This document shows, piece after piece, positions 1,271 through 20,527 of a DNA stretch of 38,066 nt. Location: assembly GCA_024640545.1 (NCBI GenBank), contig JAHEEU010000006.1, positions 1 through 38,066 of the forward strand. The letters are read 5' to 3'. The DNA is from Geobacteraceae bacterium (GTDB taxonomy: Bacteria > Desulfobacterota > Desulfuromonadia > Desulfuromonadales > BM103). The position numbers and the translations under genes are program-made. The notes beneath the pieces are model-generated. The model did no database searches. It was not told the DNA's origin and saw nothing but the letters and a program-made list of their open reading frames with translations. Every line of letters begins with the position of its first letter. Position 1 is the first letter of the stretch.

Positions 1271-1897
1271 TCAGCAGCGTGTCTCGAAGGTTGCGTCCGG
1301 CAGACCGAAATCGCGATTGCAGGTGGTGAAAAAATTCCGGATCAGCCGATAAGTGATCCCCCACAGGAGGGGCTCGTGAGGCTCAAGCAGTTCAACCACG
1401 GGATGGGTTCGTTCCGCACCACGATAAAAGAAGGTTTGATACTGCTGGCGTCCAGGTTCCAGGAGTTTCTCCAGGGGGCACCAGAAAGCCCTGGCAACCT
1501 CGTAATTCGGCTGTAAGCTTACCGGCTCCTGCATCTGATAGACAAAGCAGGATACCAGGACAGGCATGACCGCACCGTAAAGATCATCGAGACGCCCGAG
1601 ATAGCGGCTCTGGCTGAGATCAAGGGCCAGCTCTTCGAACGTCTCGCGCTCGGCCGCCTGTTGCGGTGTTTCGCCGGCCGGGTTGAGTCGGCCGCCAGGG
1701 AAGCCGATATTTCCCGACCATGGGTCGTGATCGTGCTCGGCACGCACGATAAAGAGGACTTCAGGTGAAGATGCCCCGTTCCTGAGGAGCATGGCGACGG
1801 CGGCGTGTCCACGCTCGACGGGGGAAAGGATTGCCGGGCGCTGATCGGCGAGGCATTGAGCGATGTTGGATAGCTGTAAACTGACTGCGGACTTCAT
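1271..1897 (-). CDS. Nudix hydrolase, CoA pyrophosphatase-like (NudL type)
   Basis: 208 residues. The Nudix box is complete: GGRLNPAGETP, then seven residues, then RETFEELAL, giving G-x5-E-x7-RE-x2-EE with the metal-binding glutamates. The preceding HDPWSGNIGFPGG is typical of the NudL/YeaB branch, which hydrolyses CoA and its derivatives to 3',5'-ADP and phosphopantetheine. The start codon overlaps the stop of the upstream VWA frame (ATGA, 1894-1897), so the two are translationally coupled. Family assignment is firm. The CoA substrate is inferred from the GFPGG context only. Confidence 0.88.
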   Translation of the reverse strand: MKSAVSLQLSNIAQCLADQRPAILSPVERGHAAVAMLLRNGASSPEVLFIVRAEHDHDPWSGNIGFPGGRLNPAGETPQQAAERETFEELALDLSQSRYLGRLDDLYGAVMPVLVSCFVYQMQEPVSLQPNYEVARAFWCPLEKLLEPGRQQYQTFFYRGAERTHPVVELLEPHEPLLWGITYRLIRNFFTTCNRDFGLPDATFETRC

Positions 1898-2769
1898 GGC
1901 GATTGCGTGGGTCCTGATTGTTCAATGAGGTGCAATACCTGCTCCGAGCGCAGGTCATGAATGTGCCGGCATTCGACACCGAGGGCCCGCGCCAACTGCG
2001 GCATGAGGTTCTTATGCTTCCGGCTCTCGAGGGTGTCGATGAGCAGCGCCGGAATCTTTTCCTGGTAGATGCGTTTTGCAAGGGCCAGGGCTTCGGCGTT
2101 CGGTTCGGCGCCGGGGTCCAGGGGGACCGTTGCCTCGCCGTCGGAGATCAGCACGAGCAGGGGGGCCACGCCCTGGTCCTTCAGCCTGGCCTGGCGAATC
2201 ACCTCGCGTGCTTTTTGCAAGCCGGCGGCTAGAGGCGTGGCCCCGCCGACGGGCAGGTGCTGCATCTCCTGTCTGACCAGCGCGACGCTCGCGGTGGGCG
2301 AAACAACCAGCCGGGCGGTTTGATCGCGAAAGGTGATCAGGCAGACCTGGTCACGGTTCAAATAGGCTCTTGACGCAAGCGTCAGGCTGGCGCCGAGAGC
2401 TGCCGTGATGCGCGCCGTAGGTCCGTCACCCATGGAGTCCGAGGTGTCGATGACGAAAACCACCAGCCGGCGCCCTGGCCGGTAGCGAACCTGCAGATGC
2501 AAATCTTCTGCCGCGAGCGGCCGGTCTGGTCCGGTCGCGGCGGCTTGCGCCCGGCGCAGCATCGAGGCGTTGACTGTTTTACCGAGATCCAGGGGAGAGC
2601 AGGGCCCGCGCCGCTGCCAAGGCCGGCTGCCGATGCGCCTGCCGGTGGCAGAACTCCCTGCCAGCTTGGAGCGTCTGCCCGGCTGCTGCCTGGACAGCTG
2701 CGCAAGGTGCCAGTCGACAGTCCTCAGGTCGAAGGATTCCTCGGCGCAGTAGTAGCGGTCGGCAATTTT
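1894..2769 (-). CDS. chlD: VWA-domain part of a ChlD-like chelatase subunit, reached by -1 frameshift
   Basis: This frame continues the chelatase gene after a -1 shift in the A10 run at 2766-2775. It encodes 291 residues: a short linker, a basic segment, then a von Willebrand A domain. All MIDAS elements are visible: VIDTSDSMG (DxSxS), GGATPLAAG (Thr) and LISDGEA (Asp). From the A-run down to the first ATG (2560-2562) the frame has no stop, no ATG, GTG or TTG codon, and no Shine-Dalgarno-like sequence before that ATG. Independent initiation is therefore unlikely. The fused product would be 674 residues, about the size of ChlD-type medium subunits. It overlaps the Nudix start by four bases. 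If frameshifting does not occur, an isolated VWA protein from 2562 (222 residues) is the alternative. Confidence 0.8.
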   Translation of the reverse strand, partial: KIADRYYCAEESFDLRTVDWHLAQLSRQQPGRRSKLAGSSATGRRIGSRPWQRRGPCSPLDLGKTVNASMLRRAQAAATGPDRPLAAEDLHLQVRYRPGRRLVVFVIDTSDSMGDGPTARITAALGASLTLASRAYLNRDQVCLITFRDQTARLVVSPTASVALVRQEMQHLPVGGATPLAAGLQKAREVIRQARLKDQGVAPLLVLISDGEATVPLDPGAEPNAEALALAKRIYQEKIPALLIDTLESRKHKNLMPQLARALGVECRHIHDLRSEQVLHLIEQSGPTQSP

Positions 2770-3917
2770 TTTTTTAGATATGTGAACAAACTGCTGCCCG
2801 CCGCCGCAGCGCCTGGGAAGTCCAGGTTGTCGAGCTCCTGCAGATTACCCTGGTCGGCCGTACCGGAAGCTCCGGGCGCGGCCGCCTCAAGCGTGCATTG
2901 CTCCTTCAGCAACCCGGCAAGCTTGCCGTCGATCTCGGCCTGCGAGAGGATCGCAGTCCCGGGACAGCGATGTGCCAGGGCGAAGCCGGCTATTTCGGCG
3001 AGATCGTCCAGGGTGGTGCTGTCACGGTCAAGCAGGGCTGCCAAGGCCCTGGCCGCCCTCACCAGGGCCAACTCTGCCCTGTGTCCCTGGGCCCTGACCG
3101 CAGTCGCGATGTTGACCGCGCGATCGATGACCTCGACAGGGATGGCCACCCCATCGAGCCGCTCTCTCGCGGCTATAAGCTGCTGCCGCAGCGCTTCTTC
3201 CCGGTCCTGGCAGGCCTCGCGGAAAGCCCTCGGGTCGCGGTCATAAGCCAGGCGCTGTTCGACGATGCGTCGCCTCAGTTCCACATCGTCAAGCCCGGAA
3301 ATCGTGACGCAAAGTCCAAAGCGATCGAGGAACTGGGGACGCAGTTCACCTTCTTCGGGGTTCATGGTGCCGATCAGGATGAAGCGTGCCGGGTGGCTGA
3401 ATTGCAAGCCTTCCCGCTCGACCTGGTTACGGCCGGAAGCGGCCGTGTCGAGCAGCATGTCGACCAGGTGATCGGGCAGCAGGTTGACTTCGTCGACATA
3501 GAGGATGCCGCGATGGGCGGCTGCGAGCAGACCCGGCTCGAACTGCCTTTGGCCGCTCTGCAGGGTGTGCTCCAGGTGCAGGGTGCCGACCAGGCGATCT
3601 TCCGTGGCCGAGAGGGGCAGGTCGACAAAAGGGGTCTCCAGAGAGGTCCGCGGCAGAACTTCCCCCGCGTCCTGCCTGGCCCGACAGGCGTTATGCAGCT
3701 CTTCAGGGCGATCGGGGTCGCAGTGGAAGGAACACCCTGAGACGATGGCCACTTCCGGCAGCAGCGTCGCCAGGGCCCTCGCCGCGGTCGATTTGGCAGT
3801 TCCCTTCTGGCCGCGGATCAGGACCCCGCCGATCGCCGGATCGACCGCACTGAGCAGCAGCGCAGTCTGCATCGCCTCCTGGCCGAGAATGGCGGTAAAG
3901 GGATAGGTCGGCGGCAT
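2724..3917 (-). CDS. chlD: ChlI-like AAA+ ATPase: frame-0 product, also the N-terminal part of the ChlD-like fusion
   Basis: 397 residues in frame 0. Walker A GQKGTAKS is at 36-43, Walker B ILYVDE at 138-143, and the sensor/arginine region GTMNPEEGELRPQFLDRF at 183-200. This is the magnesium/cobalt-chelatase AAA+ class that powers metal insertion into tetrapyrroles with a VWA partner and a large ChlH/CobN subunit. The helical lid ends near residue 340 and is followed by an Ala/Gly-rich linker, then LKKKLP and a stop 13 codons after the lysines. Those lysines are the A10 run where a -1 slip enters the VWA frame. No ChlH, CobN or separate ChlI gene is visible in the window. GGAGG lies 13 bases before the ATG. 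A damaged gene or a miscounted homopolymer are the alternatives. Confidence 0.88.
   Translation of the reverse strand: MPPTYPFTAILGQEAMQTALLLSAVDPAIGGVLIRGQKGTAKSTAARALATLLPEVAIVSGCSFHCDPDRPEELHNACRARQDAGEVLPRTSLETPFVDLPLSATEDRLVGTLHLEHTLQSGQRQFEPGLLAAAHRGILYVDEVNLLPDHLVDMLLDTAASGRNQVEREGLQFSHPARFILIGTMNPEEGELRPQFLDRFGLCVTISGLDDVELRRRIVEQRLAYDRDPRAFREACQDREEALRQQLIAARERLDGVAIPVEVIDRAVNIATAVRAQGHRAELALVRAARALAALLDRDSTTLDDLAEIAGFALAHRCPGTAILSQAEIDGKLAGLLKEQCTLEAAAPGASGTADQGNLQELDNLDFPGAAAAGSSLFTYLKKKLPTATTAPRNPST
2766..2775 (-). promoter_or_regulatory. A10 slippery run, predicted -1 recoding site
   Basis: The coding strand reads CTA AAA AAA AAA TTG, giving the canonical heptamer A_AAA_AAA in frame 0. 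The frames on each side differ by exactly -1 (frame-0 codons start at positions of residue 2 mod 3, VWA codons at 0 mod 3). Frame 0 meets TGA at 2724-2726, about 40 bases downstream. Possible downstream structure includes six-base arms at 2744-2749 and 2698-2703 enclosing small hairpins, but the spacer is longer than usual, and no clear internal Shine-Dalgarno stimulator lies upstream. A run of ten A can also cause RNA polymerase slippage, so ribosomal and transcriptional mechanisms are both open. Confidence 0.65.
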
Positions 3918-3995: not shown

Positions 3996-5816
3996 TCAAT
4001 CCGTAGAGTAGTGCTCTTTCTTTTTCTCCATCTCCAGGGCGTAGCGGGCCAGCACGGCGCGGCGGGTCAGCATGAACAGCACATGGTGGGGGTCCTCGTC
4101 GGCGACCACTGGAATTTCTTCCAACCCGCGGCTGGAAAGCTTGCGCATGACTTCCGTCAGGGACTCGTCCGGGCTGGTTGTGATGACCCGGGACACGGCG
4201 ATATCCCTGGCCAGGACCAGGCTGGGGGGGAGTTCCTCGGCCAGGATGCGGCGGATGTCGTTAACCGAGAAGATACCGGTCATGCGCATCTGGTCGTCGA
4301 CCACGGGGTAGTATGCTCCATCGGCATTGGCAATCTTTTCGAGAATCTCCGGCAGGGGCAGTCCCTCGGCGATCAGGGTTGGCTTGCGACCATGCTCATG
4401 CAGGTCGGTGACGCGGATCCCTTCCAGGACATCGACGATGAACTCACCGAGGTGAACCGGTGAATCAATGCGGCTCTTCACCTGTTTCTGGTAAATCGAA
4501 TTGCGCGGGTAGACGATCATGGCCACAGTGCAGACCAGCATCAGGGGCGCCAGCAGACCGTAGTTCCCGGTCAGTTCGCTGACCATGATCAGGGTGGCGA
4601 TCGGCGTGTTGGAGACCCCGGCGAAAAAGCCGGCCATGCCGATCAGCACGTAGGCCCGCGGGTCGTGGACCATGGTCGGGAAGAGGGCCTGTGCCGAGGC
4701 GCCGAAAGCGCCGCCGAGCATGGCCCCGATCACCAGGCTTGGAGCAAAGACGCCTCCGGAGCCGCCCGAGGAAATAGTCAGGCTGGTGGCGATAATCTTG
4801 GCCAGGGCAACGACCAGCATGATCCACAGCGCGACCTTGCCGTAAAGGGCCGCCTGCACCATGCCGTAGCCGGACCCGAGCACCTGGGGCACGACCATCG
4901 CCAGCAGGCCCAGCAGGAAGCCGCCGACGGCAGGTTTGAGCATGACCGGGAAATCCCACGCCTTGAACTTGTGCTGGATGCCATAGAAACATTTTACGTA
5001 CAGTTTGCCGAAGAGCGCACAGACGATGCCGAGCAGCAGGAAGAGGATGAGCTCCCGGGGGTGCTCGAAGCTGAAATGCGGGGTGGCCAGCAACGGCTTC
5101 CAGCCGGTGGTGGCACCAAAGAGGGAGAATGCGGTAATGGAAGAGATGATCGCCGGAATCAAGCCTTCGTGCTCGAATTCCGGGTTCTTGTAGAGCACTT
5201 CGACCGCAAACAGGGCGCCGCCAAGCGGGGAGCGGAAGGTGGCGCCGATGCCGCCGGCCATGCCTGCCAGCAACAGGATCCTCCGGTCCGTGGAGGTCAG
5301 CTTCAGCCGGGTGGCGATAAAGGAGCCGAAACCGGCGCCGATCTGAGCAATTGGCCCCTCGCGACCGGCCGAACCGCCAGTGCCGATCGTTGCAATGGAG
5401 GCGAGCCCCTTGATGATCGGTACCCGCCCCCTGATGATGCCACCTTTGTTGTGAAAAGCGTCAATCGCCGCATCCGTGCCATGGCCCTCTGCTTCGGGAG
5501 CGAATTTGAAGACCAGGAAACCCGAAACCAGTCCGCCGATGACCGGCACCAGGAAGAGGAACCAGCGATGATCCATGGACAGGCTGTCGATCATCCGGTC
5601 GCCCATGGCCAGGATCGCCCCGGTCCCCTCGCCTGGCGGATGGTAGCCGGCCAGATTGCTCAGGAACAGGTGCTCGACGCTGTTGGTGGCGAAGTAAAAA
5701 AGCACCGCGGCGCTTCCGGTGACCAGACCGACCAGCACGCTGAGGATGACCGGGCGCGTCAGCATGCGCCAGTCGAGTTTTTTTAGGGTGGAGAAGAGGA
5801 TGTCAAGTTTTGCCAC
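3996..5816 (-). CDS. CLC-family chloride channel/transporter with C-terminal CBS pair
   Basis: 606 residues beginning with GTG at 5814-5816. No strong ribosome site is seen, and an in-frame ATG at codon 18 is possible. The CLC core has GHGTD at 111-115 in place of GSGIP, GREGP at 151-155 with the gating glutamate E153, GGSGGVFAPS at 351-360, and Y442 in SIYQ. After about residue 465 two CBS domains follow (roughly 465-525 and 538-595), which in the family bind adenine nucleotides. The motif FAVEVL puts Val207 where E. coli ClcA has the proton glutamate E203, as in eukaryotic CLC channels. Chloride movement across the inner membrane is likely; channel versus exchanger is not settled. It stands 79 bases downstream-strand of the chelatase gene start and is probably its own unit or joined with the small upstream gene. 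Confidence 0.92.
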   Translation of the reverse strand: MAKLDILFSTLKKLDWRMLTRPVILSVLVGLVTGSAAVLFYFATNSVEHLFLSNLAGYHPPGEGTGAILAMGDRMIDSLSMDHRWFLFLVPVIGGLVSGFLVFKFAPEAEGHGTDAAIDAFHNKGGIIRGRVPIIKGLASIATIGTGGSAGREGPIAQIGAGFGSFIATRLKLTSTDRRILLLAGMAGGIGATFRSPLGGALFAVEVLYKNPEFEHEGLIPAIISSITAFSLFGATTGWKPLLATPHFSFEHPRELILFLLLGIVCALFGKLYVKCFYGIQHKFKAWDFPVMLKPAVGGFLLGLLAMVVPQVLGSGYGMVQAALYGKVALWIMLVVALAKIIATSLTISSGGSGGVFAPSLVIGAMLGGAFGASAQALFPTMVHDPRAYVLIGMAGFFAGVSNTPIATLIMVSELTGNYGLLAPLMLVCTVAMIVYPRNSIYQKQVKSRIDSPVHLGEFIVDVLEGIRVTDLHEHGRKPTLIAEGLPLPEILEKIANADGAYYPVVDDQMRMTGIFSVNDIRRILAEELPPSLVLARDIAVSRVITTSPDESLTEVMRKLSSRGLEEIPVVADEDPHHVLFMLTRRAVLARYALEMEKKKEHYSTD

Positions 5817-5917: not shown

Positions 5918-6226
5918 CTAATAGCTGCTGAGCTGTTTCTGCAAGGTGGCCTTGGTTTCGTCCACCCATCTGGTGTTGATCAGCTTGACCTTCTTCAGGT
6001 AGCCGGAAGAAATCATCTTGCTGTCCGCCTTGGTCTTCATGAAAGAGCAGACCAGGAAATTTGAATAATCGATATCCTTCCAGATCTTTTCCTGCATCTC
6101 CACCGGGAGGGGGTATTCCTGTTGCAACTTGGTGAGCAGGAAGGCCTTGTGATCTTCAATTTTCGGTACTGTGTAGTTGAGGTAGACCAGGCCGGCGATC
6201 AGGATGAAAAAAAAGAGACGGGACAT
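5918..6226 (-). CDS. Small membrane-anchored or secreted protein of unknown function
   Basis: 102 residues from the ATG 6224-6226, which has GGAGAG eight bases upstream. A hydrophobic N-terminus (LFFFILIAGLVYLNY) acts as a signal peptide or anchor without a clear cleavage site. The rest is a charged, Lys-rich domain with one cysteine and predicted helical character. The N-terminal pattern with an early Pro after the helix recalls the small DUF4359-type proteins, but this is only an impression. It precedes the CLC gene on the same strand by 101 bases, so co-transcription is possible. Confidence 0.7.
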   Translation of the reverse strand: MSRLFFFILIAGLVYLNYTVPKIEDHKAFLLTKLQQEYPLPVEMQEKIWKDIDYSNFLVCSFMKTKADSKMISSGYLKKVKLINTRWVDETKATLQKQLSSY

Positions 6227-6361
6227 GGTGATAAGCTCTCCTCGACAAAATGACAGGTCGAGGTCTAGGATAGCGCAAAAAAGTAAGGATGAACAGGGTT
6301 TCAATCACCTAATTTCACGATAACATTGCTCTATAAGGATTTTGGTCTTTTCGGGAGGTAA

Positions 6362-8469: not shown

Positions 8470-11400
8470 TCAGTGGACGGCCACGCCGAATTCGACCCGC
8501 GCACGGCTGGTGGTCTCCTTGTCCGGTACTGACGTGATATCGGTCTCCTGCAGAAAGATCCTTTCCTGGGCGAGTTTTCCTTGTTCGATCAGGAAGTTCT
8601 GAACGGCTATAGCCCTTGCCTGGGCGAGCTCGGCGAGGTCGTTGCCGGTCACCGAGGTGTTGGTGTAGATCAGTTTCTCCATTTCCGGTACCGGCAGTTT
8701 TCTGGTTATGCCGATGAAGTTGCGCGGTTTGGGGAAGTCGGCTTCGCGGTAGACCTCCCAGAGGTAGTCGGCATACTCTTCGTCAGGCACGGTCACGTCC
8801 TCTTCGCTGGTCCCCTCGGGGAGCTCCCCGGCCTTGACCAGGTCGAGGTACTTGAGCCGCTTGACCTCAGTACTGAGCTGCTGACTGCGATAGCCTTCGA
8901 CGTCCTGTTCAGGATCAATGAAACCGCTGACTTCAATCTCAAGCCCGGGGCGCTCGGCCAGGGCCTGCGCCATGTGCTGCAGCTTGTCCTTTTGGTCCGG
9001 CCCGAGGCGGGATGAGCCGTAGTCGAAGCTGACACTGCTGAAGTCCTGGTCGCCACCGCCGGCCAGGGCGCCGAGCAAGGCAAATGGCGAGGTTGCGGCC
9101 TTGACTATCAGGTTCCTGATGATGGTCCAGACCACTCCGGTGATGCTGAACTGAGGGTCGTCGAGGCTGCCGGAGACGGGGATATCCATATGGATTTCGC
9201 CCTTGCTGTCCTTGAGCAGGGCGACCGCCAGCTTGACCGGCAAGGTGGTCGCCTTGTCGCTCTCGACCTTGTCGCCGAAGGTGAACTGGTCGAGAAATAC
9301 CTGGTTGTTCGCCTTGAGCTTGCCGTCTTCGAGAAAATATTCAAGGGCGAGGTTGAGCTTGCCCTTCTTGATCAAATAGCCCACATAGGTGCCGGAATAA
9401 GGGGAGAGCGGGCTCAGTTCAATGTCATTGAAGCTCAGCTTGAGATCGAGGAAGAGCCTTTCGGCCAGCGGGTTGACCGAGCCGCTGATCGACAGGGGAG
9501 ACTGGTTGCGCAGGCTGCCGCGCAGGTCGACCGAGGCCCGCGTCTCCGCTGCCGAAGAGAGCCCTTTGATGCTTCCGCCCAGTTCGCGCATATCGGCGTG
9601 AAAGGGGCGGGGGAGGCTGCGATCGGTAAAGTCGACCTGGCCGCCCTGCAGGGTGACGGTCTCGATGCGGATGTCGGGAGTTGCCGCGGCCTGTGTGGCG
9701 TCTTCAGCCGGGGCGGTTGCCGGGGTCTTCTCTGCTGCAGGCTCCGCGGTCTCAGCGCCTGGAGCGGCGCCCGGCTTGCGAAACGCTTCCACCAGGTTGA
9801 GCCGAGCCTCTTCATCGATCAGGACCTTGGCGAAGTAGGCACTGAGAGTGATCGACTGGACCGCTAAAGTCAGGGGGGCCAGCTGAGCGTCGATGCCGGC
9901 CAGTTGCAGGCTGTCCCATTTCATCAGGTCTTCGCGGTGGAGGGCGTCGAGCAGGTGGAAGCGGCTGACGCCGACATCGCCGGCAAAGGTAATTTTCAAG
10001 GGTCCGGTGCCTGCCTCCACGGTGCTGTTCAACTGTGCATCGAGCAAGCCGTCGACGAGGGCCAGGCTGGCCTGCTCGGCAAGGTAGGGTGCGAAAGTGG
10101 CGAGTGGAATCTGTTTGAGGCGACCAGCCAGGCTGATCGACTGATCGGCGAGCGAGGCGTTGCCGCTGATTTCGATCCGCCCCTTGCTCTGGAAAGTGGT
10201 CGAGAGGGTGAAGGGACTCTCGACCTTCTCCGGAGCCGCAAGGTTGTGGAAGGTCAGGTTGAAATCGCGGGCCTCCAGCTTGGTCGGGGTCGACGGCAGA
10301 AAGTCGCTGACTTCGAATGTGCCGTTGATCATGGAGAGCTCGCCGATCCGGTAGCTGAACACCGGGCCCTGTTCTGTTCGCTCTGGTGTGGTTTTTTCCT
10401 CCGGGGCCTCCGTCAACTTGGTCAGAACCGGGAAATTCTGTGAGAGGAAGGACCAGTGCCCCTCATGACTGCGAGAGAAATTGACCCGACCGTTCTGGTA
10501 GAGAAACGAGCCGACTTCGAGCCGATTCCTGTCCAGGTCGAAAGACAGCTGGCCCATTTCGATCAGGTCAACCTTGACCCCCTCCTGCTCATTGAACGCC
10601 ATGGAGGCCTCTCGCCATTGCAGGTGTCCTTCGCTGATCAGCAGGCGCTGGCCGGGGCTGACCGCCAGGTTCAACTCGAGACCAAGTTTCCCGCCGAGAG
10701 GCCCGGAGTAGGTTTCGCGATAGTAGGGTTCATAGGCCCCGGCCTCGATGTTGCCCAGTACGGCTTTGAGGTCCAGGGAAAAGGGGTTGAGCAGGAAGTG
10801 GCCGTTGACCGCAACATTCTCGTCCCGGTCGGTCGCCAGTGCGAGCTCGAAGGGGATGCCGTTGTCGGCGTCGAGAGCGAAGTTTCTGACGTCGAGGTTG
10901 ATATCCCTGGCTGCTGCACTGAACCCCCCGGCGGGGAGGCTGTCCTCGAAAAAGACGGCTCCATCGCGAAGTTTGAAGCTGTCGACCAGGAGCTTGAAGG
11001 GCGCTGCCGGCGGTTGCTCTTCCGGGGCGGTTTCCTGCCCTGGCGATACCTCTGCCATGCGGGCGTGGTTCCACGCTCCATGCTGGTCTCTCTTCAGCTG
11101 GACTTCGAGGTTATAGACATGCACCGAGGCGAGGTGGAGTTGCCGCTGCAGCAGCTGCGAGGGGGCGATCTCGACCTGCATCAGCGGCAGGAAGAAGAGC
11201 TGTTCATCGAGCCGGTCCCAGATGTTGAGCGAAGTCAGGTTGAGACGTCCGCTCAGTTCCAGTTCGCCGCCCGACTCGGCGGAGACCCGGTAGAGGATGT
11301 CGAGGTCGATGCTGAGCCCGCCGTTGCGCACCTCGACCGGCAGTTCGAACGGCACATATCCGAGGTAGAAGGGCAGGTCGATGTTGGAAAGATTCAGGTT

Positions 11401-19782: not shown

Positions 19783-20527
19783 GCTCAAGCTGGCCGGAGA
19801 GGTCCAGAAGCTGCTTCTGCCGAAGAACTCCCCCCGCTGCAACTGGTGCCGCATCGCAGCCAAAAATCGCATGGCCGAAGTGCTCGGCGGCGACTTTTAC
19901 GACTTTATCGAGCTCGACAGCGGCTGCCAGGTTCTCTTCCTCGGTGACGTGACCGGGCATGGCCTGCATGCTTCGGTGGTCATGTCGCTGGTCTACGGCT
20001 TCATCCATCATGCCGCCGTAGAAGAGTGCCGCCCGCAGGATGTGGTCTGCGACCTCAATGCTTTCCTGCGCACTTTTGCCCGGCGTTCCAACCTTCTGGA
20101 TCATTTTTTTTCGGCGACGATCTTTTTCGGCGTCATCGACCCGCGCACTCTGGCGATGCACTATGTCAATGCCGGGCACCCGGCCGCCCTCGTGCGCCGC
20201 CGGGAGACCCTGCTCCGCCTGCCGGCGACCAGCCCTCCGGTCGGCTATTTCGATCAGGCAGAGTTTCCAGCTGTCCGCTTCCAGCTCGAAGCCGGCGACC
20301 GCTTGCTGCTCTACACTGACGGGTTGATCGACAGCAGCAGCCCGCAGGGCCAAATGTACGGTGCGGAACGCCTCGATGCTGCTTTCCGCAGCCTGGATGG
20401 TGATCATATGGTATTTTTGGAAAGGCTCTTTGCAGAGCTCGGCGACCACCTTGCCGGCCAGCCGCCGTTTGACGATTGCACGGCGATCGTGGTGGATTTG
20501 CCCGGCGCCATCTCGGGAGGGGGGTAG
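19727..20527 (+). CDS. Stand-alone SpoIIE/RsbU-type PP2C serine phosphatase
   Basis: 266 residues from the ATG 19727, which has AGGAGG just upstream; an in-frame ATG 15 bases earlier lies before that ribosome site. The metal-binding motifs are present: VLGGDFYDFIEL, FLGDVTGHGLHAS, YVNAGHPAAL, LLLYTDGLIDS and PFDDCTAIVV. There is no N-terminal sensor domain beyond about 20 residues, so the protein is essentially just the phosphatase. Family members dephosphorylate anti-anti-sigma or similar STAS proteins; no such partner is in the window. It overlaps ttcA by 56 bases and is followed four bases later by a PilZ gene. Confidence 0.9.
   Translation: MSQPRVASNPPQRGLDPVELKLAGEVQKLLLPKNSPRCNWCRIAAKNRMAEVLGGDFYDFIELDSGCQVLFLGDVTGHGLHASVVMSLVYGFIHHAAVEECRPQDVVCDLNAFLRTFARRSNLLDHFFSATIFFGVIDPRTLAMHYVNAGHPAALVRRRETLLRLPATSPPVGYFDQAEFPAVRFQLEAGDRLLLYTDGLIDSSSPQGQMYGAERLDAAFRSLDGDHMVFLERLFAELGDHLAGQPPFDDCTAIVVDLPGAISGGG

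Follow-up and report, generated by a model that had tools for sequence, protein, structure and literature searches.

Anatomy of the fs-chlD locus

The window (the whole stretch of DNA analysed: 38,066 nucleotides, positions 1 to 38,066 of contig JAHEEU010000006.1 in the Geobacteraceae bacterium assembly GCA_024640545.1, genome G000 in our set) carries on its minus strand a chlD-like gene that lies in two frames and is flanked by genes for a chloride channel and a NUDIX hydrolase. From upstream to downstream the features are:

3996–5816, minus strand: ClC-type chloride channel containing CBS domains, immediately upstream of fs-chlD
2724–3917, minus strand: 0-frame product, a 397-amino-acid ChlI-like AAA+ ATPase (small subunit), by matches to TIGR02442, TIGR02030 (BchI-ChlI) and ChlI structures in the PDB
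3786–3812, minus strand: Walker A, GQKGTAKST, from the sequence
3489–3506, minus strand: Walker B, ILYVDE, from the sequence
2766–2775, minus strand: A10 slippery run, CTA AAA AAA AAA TTG, with A_AAA_AAA in phase, from sequence and comparison
2724–2726, minus strand: 0-frame TGA stop, 13 sense codons past the last AAA and at the same codon position in the six family members
1894–2775, minus strand: −1 extension, linker plus VWA domain (VWA_2, E = 6.7e-16; PDB BchD, 2x31), with stop TGA at 1894–1896
2434–2448, minus strand: MIDAS motif DTSDS (DxSxS), intact
1271–1897, minus strand: NUDIX hydrolase, its start codon sharing an ATGA with the fs-chlD stop

The 0 frame begins with ATG at 3917 and spans 397 codons. 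The VWA part lies in exactly the −1 frame relative to it, and this frame has no stop between 2844 and the TGA at 1894–1896, its first ATG, GTG or TTG being the ATG at 2562; a −1 fusion at the run is predicted to comprise 384 + 290 = 674 amino acids. The original prediction, made from the letters of this DNA, had described a ChlI-like frame stopping soon after the run, a VWA frame open to 1894 with neither a start codon before 2562 nor a ribosome site there, and an intact MIDAS. The coordinates and the frame check bear this out, and by inspection we saw no Shine–Dalgarno-like sequence ahead of ATG 2562. At 61% GC, the A10 is the sole A or T run of at least nine in the window, where a first-order Markov model expects about 0.02 runs of at least ten. 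Three further runs of eight A or T occur (736–743, 6207–6214 and 20104–20111), the first two overlapping the listed open reading frames 187–795 and 5918–6304.

Against NCBIfam, the 0-frame product matches TIGR02442 over residues 5–323 and TIGR02030 over residues 5–318, and solved ChlI structures (PDB 6l8d, 8osf and 1g8p) align to residues 4–319. The whole ChlI fold is therefore covered, followed by linker, in agreement with the earlier proposal that the 0 frame ends in the linker just where a small subunit should end. The VWA part is closest in the PDB to BchD (2x31). Both halves find their best NCBIfam match in TIGR02442, ‘putative cobaltochelatase’, scoring separately 457 and 170 bits against a curated cut-off of 779 bits that applies to the whole protein.

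ClC, fs-chlD and NUDIX form a tight operon in the window family. The channel gene is found at this position in each of the six family members (80–95% identical) and overlaps fs-chlD by four bases in two of them; a NUDIX gene follows fs-chlD in five, with no call in the sixth (G007). The channel gene is better conserved than the adjoining fs-chlD (57–83%). Neither neighbour is kept near fs-chlD outside the window family, and because they are confined to it they are a weak functional lead.

Conservation and codon-level restraint in the order

This anatomy is conserved, and restrained at the level of single codons, across the order. Of 136 genomes of the order searched in full, 24 have the gene, and in 22 of these it is broken alike: the run is A9 or A10, the VWA part is always in −1 and the 0 frame stops shortly past the run. 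One of the 22 genomes is a single contig; in another, G002, the gene is split across two contigs. The run is A10 in five of the six window-family members and A9 in the sixth and in 16 other genes of the order. In G006 a TAA stands in the −1 frame where the run begins, leaving that frame open from the run only.

In a codon alignment of 19 genes, 133 columns (Met and Trp excluded) are invariant in amino acid. Just three of them are also identical in codon in every gene, and these are the Lys codons of the run. All 66 Lys codons at the run are AAA, compared with 47.5% in the rest of the same genes, a contrast that holds even though the genes are related and their codon counts thus not independent. 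Five of six family genes have CTA as the Leu codon preceding the run, whereas CTA accounts for 2.3% of Leu codons elsewhere, and it is this codon that turns A9 into A10. Alignment of homologues had been proposed as a check, and A-run, −1 relation and extreme synonymous restraint all prove to be conserved in the order.

Tests of assembly error, pseudogene formation and internal initiation led us to reject all three. It is extremely improbable that a homopolymer sequencing or assembly error has broken one continuous frame: the site is a homopolymer in a MAG-like draft assembly of 268 contigs, but 21 other genomes of the order, one of them in a single contig, have the same A9/A10 break and the run codons are frozen. 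Equally improbable is gene decay following a recent frameshift. A single species in which both frames are broken would fit decay, yet both frames, Walker A, Walker B and MIDAS are kept across the order; relatives were checked for intact frames and for conserved run codons, and the latter are there, in line with the earlier view that the downstream part is under selection rather than decayed. Only marginally better placed, and still very unlikely, is a separate VWA protein initiated at ATG 2562 with the run incidental. The in-frame ATG exists, but the stretch from the run to 2562 aligns as protein among relatives and the run codons are again frozen. Internal initiation moreover fails to explain the VWA part, since start codons in the −1 frame are not conserved in position and G007 has none at all between the run and MIDAS.

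We consider it very probable, judging from sequence and comparison, that the window gene is an fs-chlD, a chlD with programmed −1 frameshifting that would yield both products from one gene by slippage on the A run. Standard decoding would end 13 codons past the A10 and give a complete 397-residue ChlI-like AAA+ subunit. In a fraction of expression events a slip of one base on the run, either by the ribosome moving back on A_AAA_AAA or by RNA polymerase adding an A, would instead give a 674-residue ChlD-like subunit in which linker and VWA domain follow the shared AAA+ module. A hetero-oligomeric AAA+/VWA motor would thus obtain its two subunits from a single gene, in proportions that the run determines; we infer that the cell makes both proteins and that they assemble. 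Antonov (2020) reportedly described programmed frameshifting in chlD that gives small and medium cobalt-chelatase subunits.

Frameshifting of the fs-chlD kind has been documented (Antonov 2013, PMC3711429; Kuznetsov 2022, PMC9227772), and the window gene is built like known examples, with a poly-A slippery site, a shift in the −1 direction and no separate chlI. It differs in having no downstream hairpin, in a run kept at A9–A10 throughout the order's 22 genes and in the tight ClC/NUDIX operon of its family. The break is real and well conserved, a very probable programmed frameshift of a kind known since 2013 and examined in chlD in 2020. What is new is its spread in the order, the run length, the missing stimulators, the family operon and the fact that a large subunit is almost always absent, although the 2020 lists of Antonov may already include some of the species.

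Chelatase partners and B12 genes

G000 is 87.6% complete and its congener G004 99% complete. Profile PF02514, which covers both CobN and ChlH, has no match in G000, and CobN was likewise not found with it in G004; ChlH, which magnesium chelatase (ChlIDH) requires, is thus lacking in G000. We found no CbiK, CbiX or CbiG in G000 and no CbiG in G004. The separate chlI for which the original prediction suggested a search is absent from G000, and no second chlI is present at E ≤ 1e-40 in any fs-chlD genome of the order, whereas G013 and G097, with unslipped chlD, both have one. Together with the conserved run, −1 relation and early 0-frame stop, this favours the earlier idea that one gene specifies ChlI-like and ChlD-like products.

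CobN is absent from 34 of 36 distinct fs-chlD genomes. The remaining two give a signal: a 930-residue open frame in G091, which its coordinates identify with G025, and in G006 a match of 87 residues that is broken off by the contig end. The G006 contig (L042, G006:C45) carries this CobN-like N terminus at 4186–4755, after genes resembling the G013 cluster; the rest of CobN was not found in the G006 genome. Full-length CobN profile matches in the order are confined to G013 and G097, both with unslipped genes, so that fs-chlD and CobN tend to be mutually exclusive in the order.

These two genomes hold a different, unslipped chelatase-type system. Loci L041 (G013:C86, 5106–18892) and L145 (G097:C98) are ordinary cobN-chlD-chlI sets, with, in G097, cobN on another contig and only the C-terminal 342 residues of chlD on the contig. 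The G013 cluster comes after two further genes, the first apparently encoding a TonB-type receptor, and the chlI genes of G013 and G097 have the same three genes downstream (78–80% identical). CbiG of the anaerobic B12 route is present in several other fs-chlD genomes of the order, and fs-chlD is therefore not simply a mark of B12 loss.

That the window products belong to a cobalt chelatase, as originally predicted, is accordingly improbable. Both halves do fall best in a family named for cobaltochelatase, and in other taxa fs-chlD serves CobN (PMC9227772), but CobN and ChlH are missing here, CobN is missing in nearly all fs-chlD genomes examined, the B12 genes sought in G000 and G004 are not there, and the full-length CobN genomes of the order use unslipped genes. 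The prediction thus stands for slippage on the A run giving two products and falls for cobalt-chelatase membership.

The window gene is of the fs-chlD type without a large subunit, and the putative AAA+/VWA motor of this genome would work without CobN or ChlH. Genomes that have fs-chlD without a large subunit have been termed ‘stage 1’, with the function given as unknown (PMC9227772; for example, Spirochaeta thermophila and Brevefilum fermentans). The window genus resembles them in lacking chlH and cobN and additionally shows no B12 chelatase or CbiG; it differs in that the trait is here widespread in one order (Desulfuromonadales-type), several of whose carriers have CbiG. Tentatively, such a motor may act on another client, in membrane transport or metal-cofactor assembly, with its subunit ratio set by RNA polymerase slippage on stimulator-free A9–A10 runs; the guess at the client comes from the ClC and NUDIX operon. 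CoxD/CoxE-like MoxR AAA+ plus VWA systems could be a model for a pair without the H subunit. Such systems (CoxD: PMC3471820) pair AAA+ and VWA proteins without a tetrapyrrole-binding large subunit; they differ from the window gene in being separate genes and in using a different AAA+ branch, the window AAA+ part scoring about 300 bits against true ChlI.

These results extend fs-chlD to an order in which nearly every carrier, complete genomes included, is without CobN and ChlH. A related gene occurs in the cultured species Malonomonas rubra, and the role of ChlI and ChlD without a large subunit, a question raised previously (PMC9227772), becomes directly testable.

Spread beyond the order and the slipping step

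In named genomes a scan gave 80 loci. Wherever a single chlD gene lies in two overlapping frames in these genomes, the VWA part is in −1 and an A8–A10 run is in the overlap; no true +1 case occurs among them. Named genomes and the order together give 54 distinct genes (7 with A8, 35 with A9 and 12 with A10). A tree of the AAA+ part resolves two large frameshift groups, a Desulfobacterota-type group that contains the window gene and single Spirochaetota and Omnitrophota members, and a Chloroflexota group that includes one record labelled Bacteroidetes. Nested in the group of the window gene is L051, a chlD fused in frame that keeps A8G at the slip site (about 9120–9140), possibly a return to a single frame; slippage is thus not obligatory for the fold. 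The fs-chlD of an Omnitrophota-labelled record (L043) groups with the gene of G092, from the order of the window, reflecting either transfer or a misbinned contig.

Reporters of other chlD runs in E. coli frameshift at 63%, 40% and 10% with 11, 9 and 7 A's (PMC3711429), and on these three tests the A10 run is expected to slip often. Signals for chlD frameshifting usually include downstream RNA structure (PMC9227772). Folding found no hairpin or stem 3′ of the window run, 91% of control stretches from the same region folding at least as stably as its downstream stretch, and a motif scan placed a dnaX-like Shine–Dalgarno motif upstream of the run in L111 only, not in the window. With both stimulators absent, ribosome and RNA polymerase are each candidates for the slip.

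Slippage by RNA polymerase alone, with A's added or dropped so that A11 transcripts read straight into the VWA part, differs from programmed frameshifting as set out above in the slipping step only, being a sub-case of it, and is a serious contender that we hold to be somewhat short of an even chance. In its favour, each of the order's 22 genes has a run of at least nine A's, and at this length selection against transcriptional slippage is evident in many bacteria (PMC1088944). No hairpin or Shine–Dalgarno-like stimulator was found near the run of the window family, and the otherwise rare CTA makes A10 in five of six family genes. Against polymerase slippage as the sole mechanism, A_AAA_AAA is in phase in every case, making a ribosomal slip equally possible, and the A8 Chloroflexota clade keeps a hairpin that points to the ribosome there. 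On balance we regard ribosomal slippage as slightly the likelier of the two, and both may act.

In dnaX of Thermus thermophilus, RNA polymerase slips on an A9 run (PMC1088944), which the long stimulator-free runs of fs-chlD resemble. Like fs-chlD, dnaX derives short and long AAA+ products from an A run, by RNA polymerase slippage in T. thermophilus and by a ribosomal −1 shift in E. coli. The standard frame gives the long product in dnaX and the short one in fs-chlD, and the genes are not orthologous.

The Chloroflexota hairpin (L077, L083, L093, L103 and L105, all A8) is a shared stem of 8–10 bp, GCTGACCG/CGGTCAGC, that lies 5–7 nt after the run, one variant carrying a compensatory change. The hairpin-free long A runs and these A8-plus-hairpin genes offer a ready comparison, within one gene family, for telling transcriptional slippage apart from ribosomal slippage. 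We considered a general link between short runs and hairpins (5 of 7 A8 genes compared with 3 of 47 longer ones, Fisher 3e-4) and rejected it on the tree, in which the five A8-hairpin genes are one clade and so count as a single evolutionary event.
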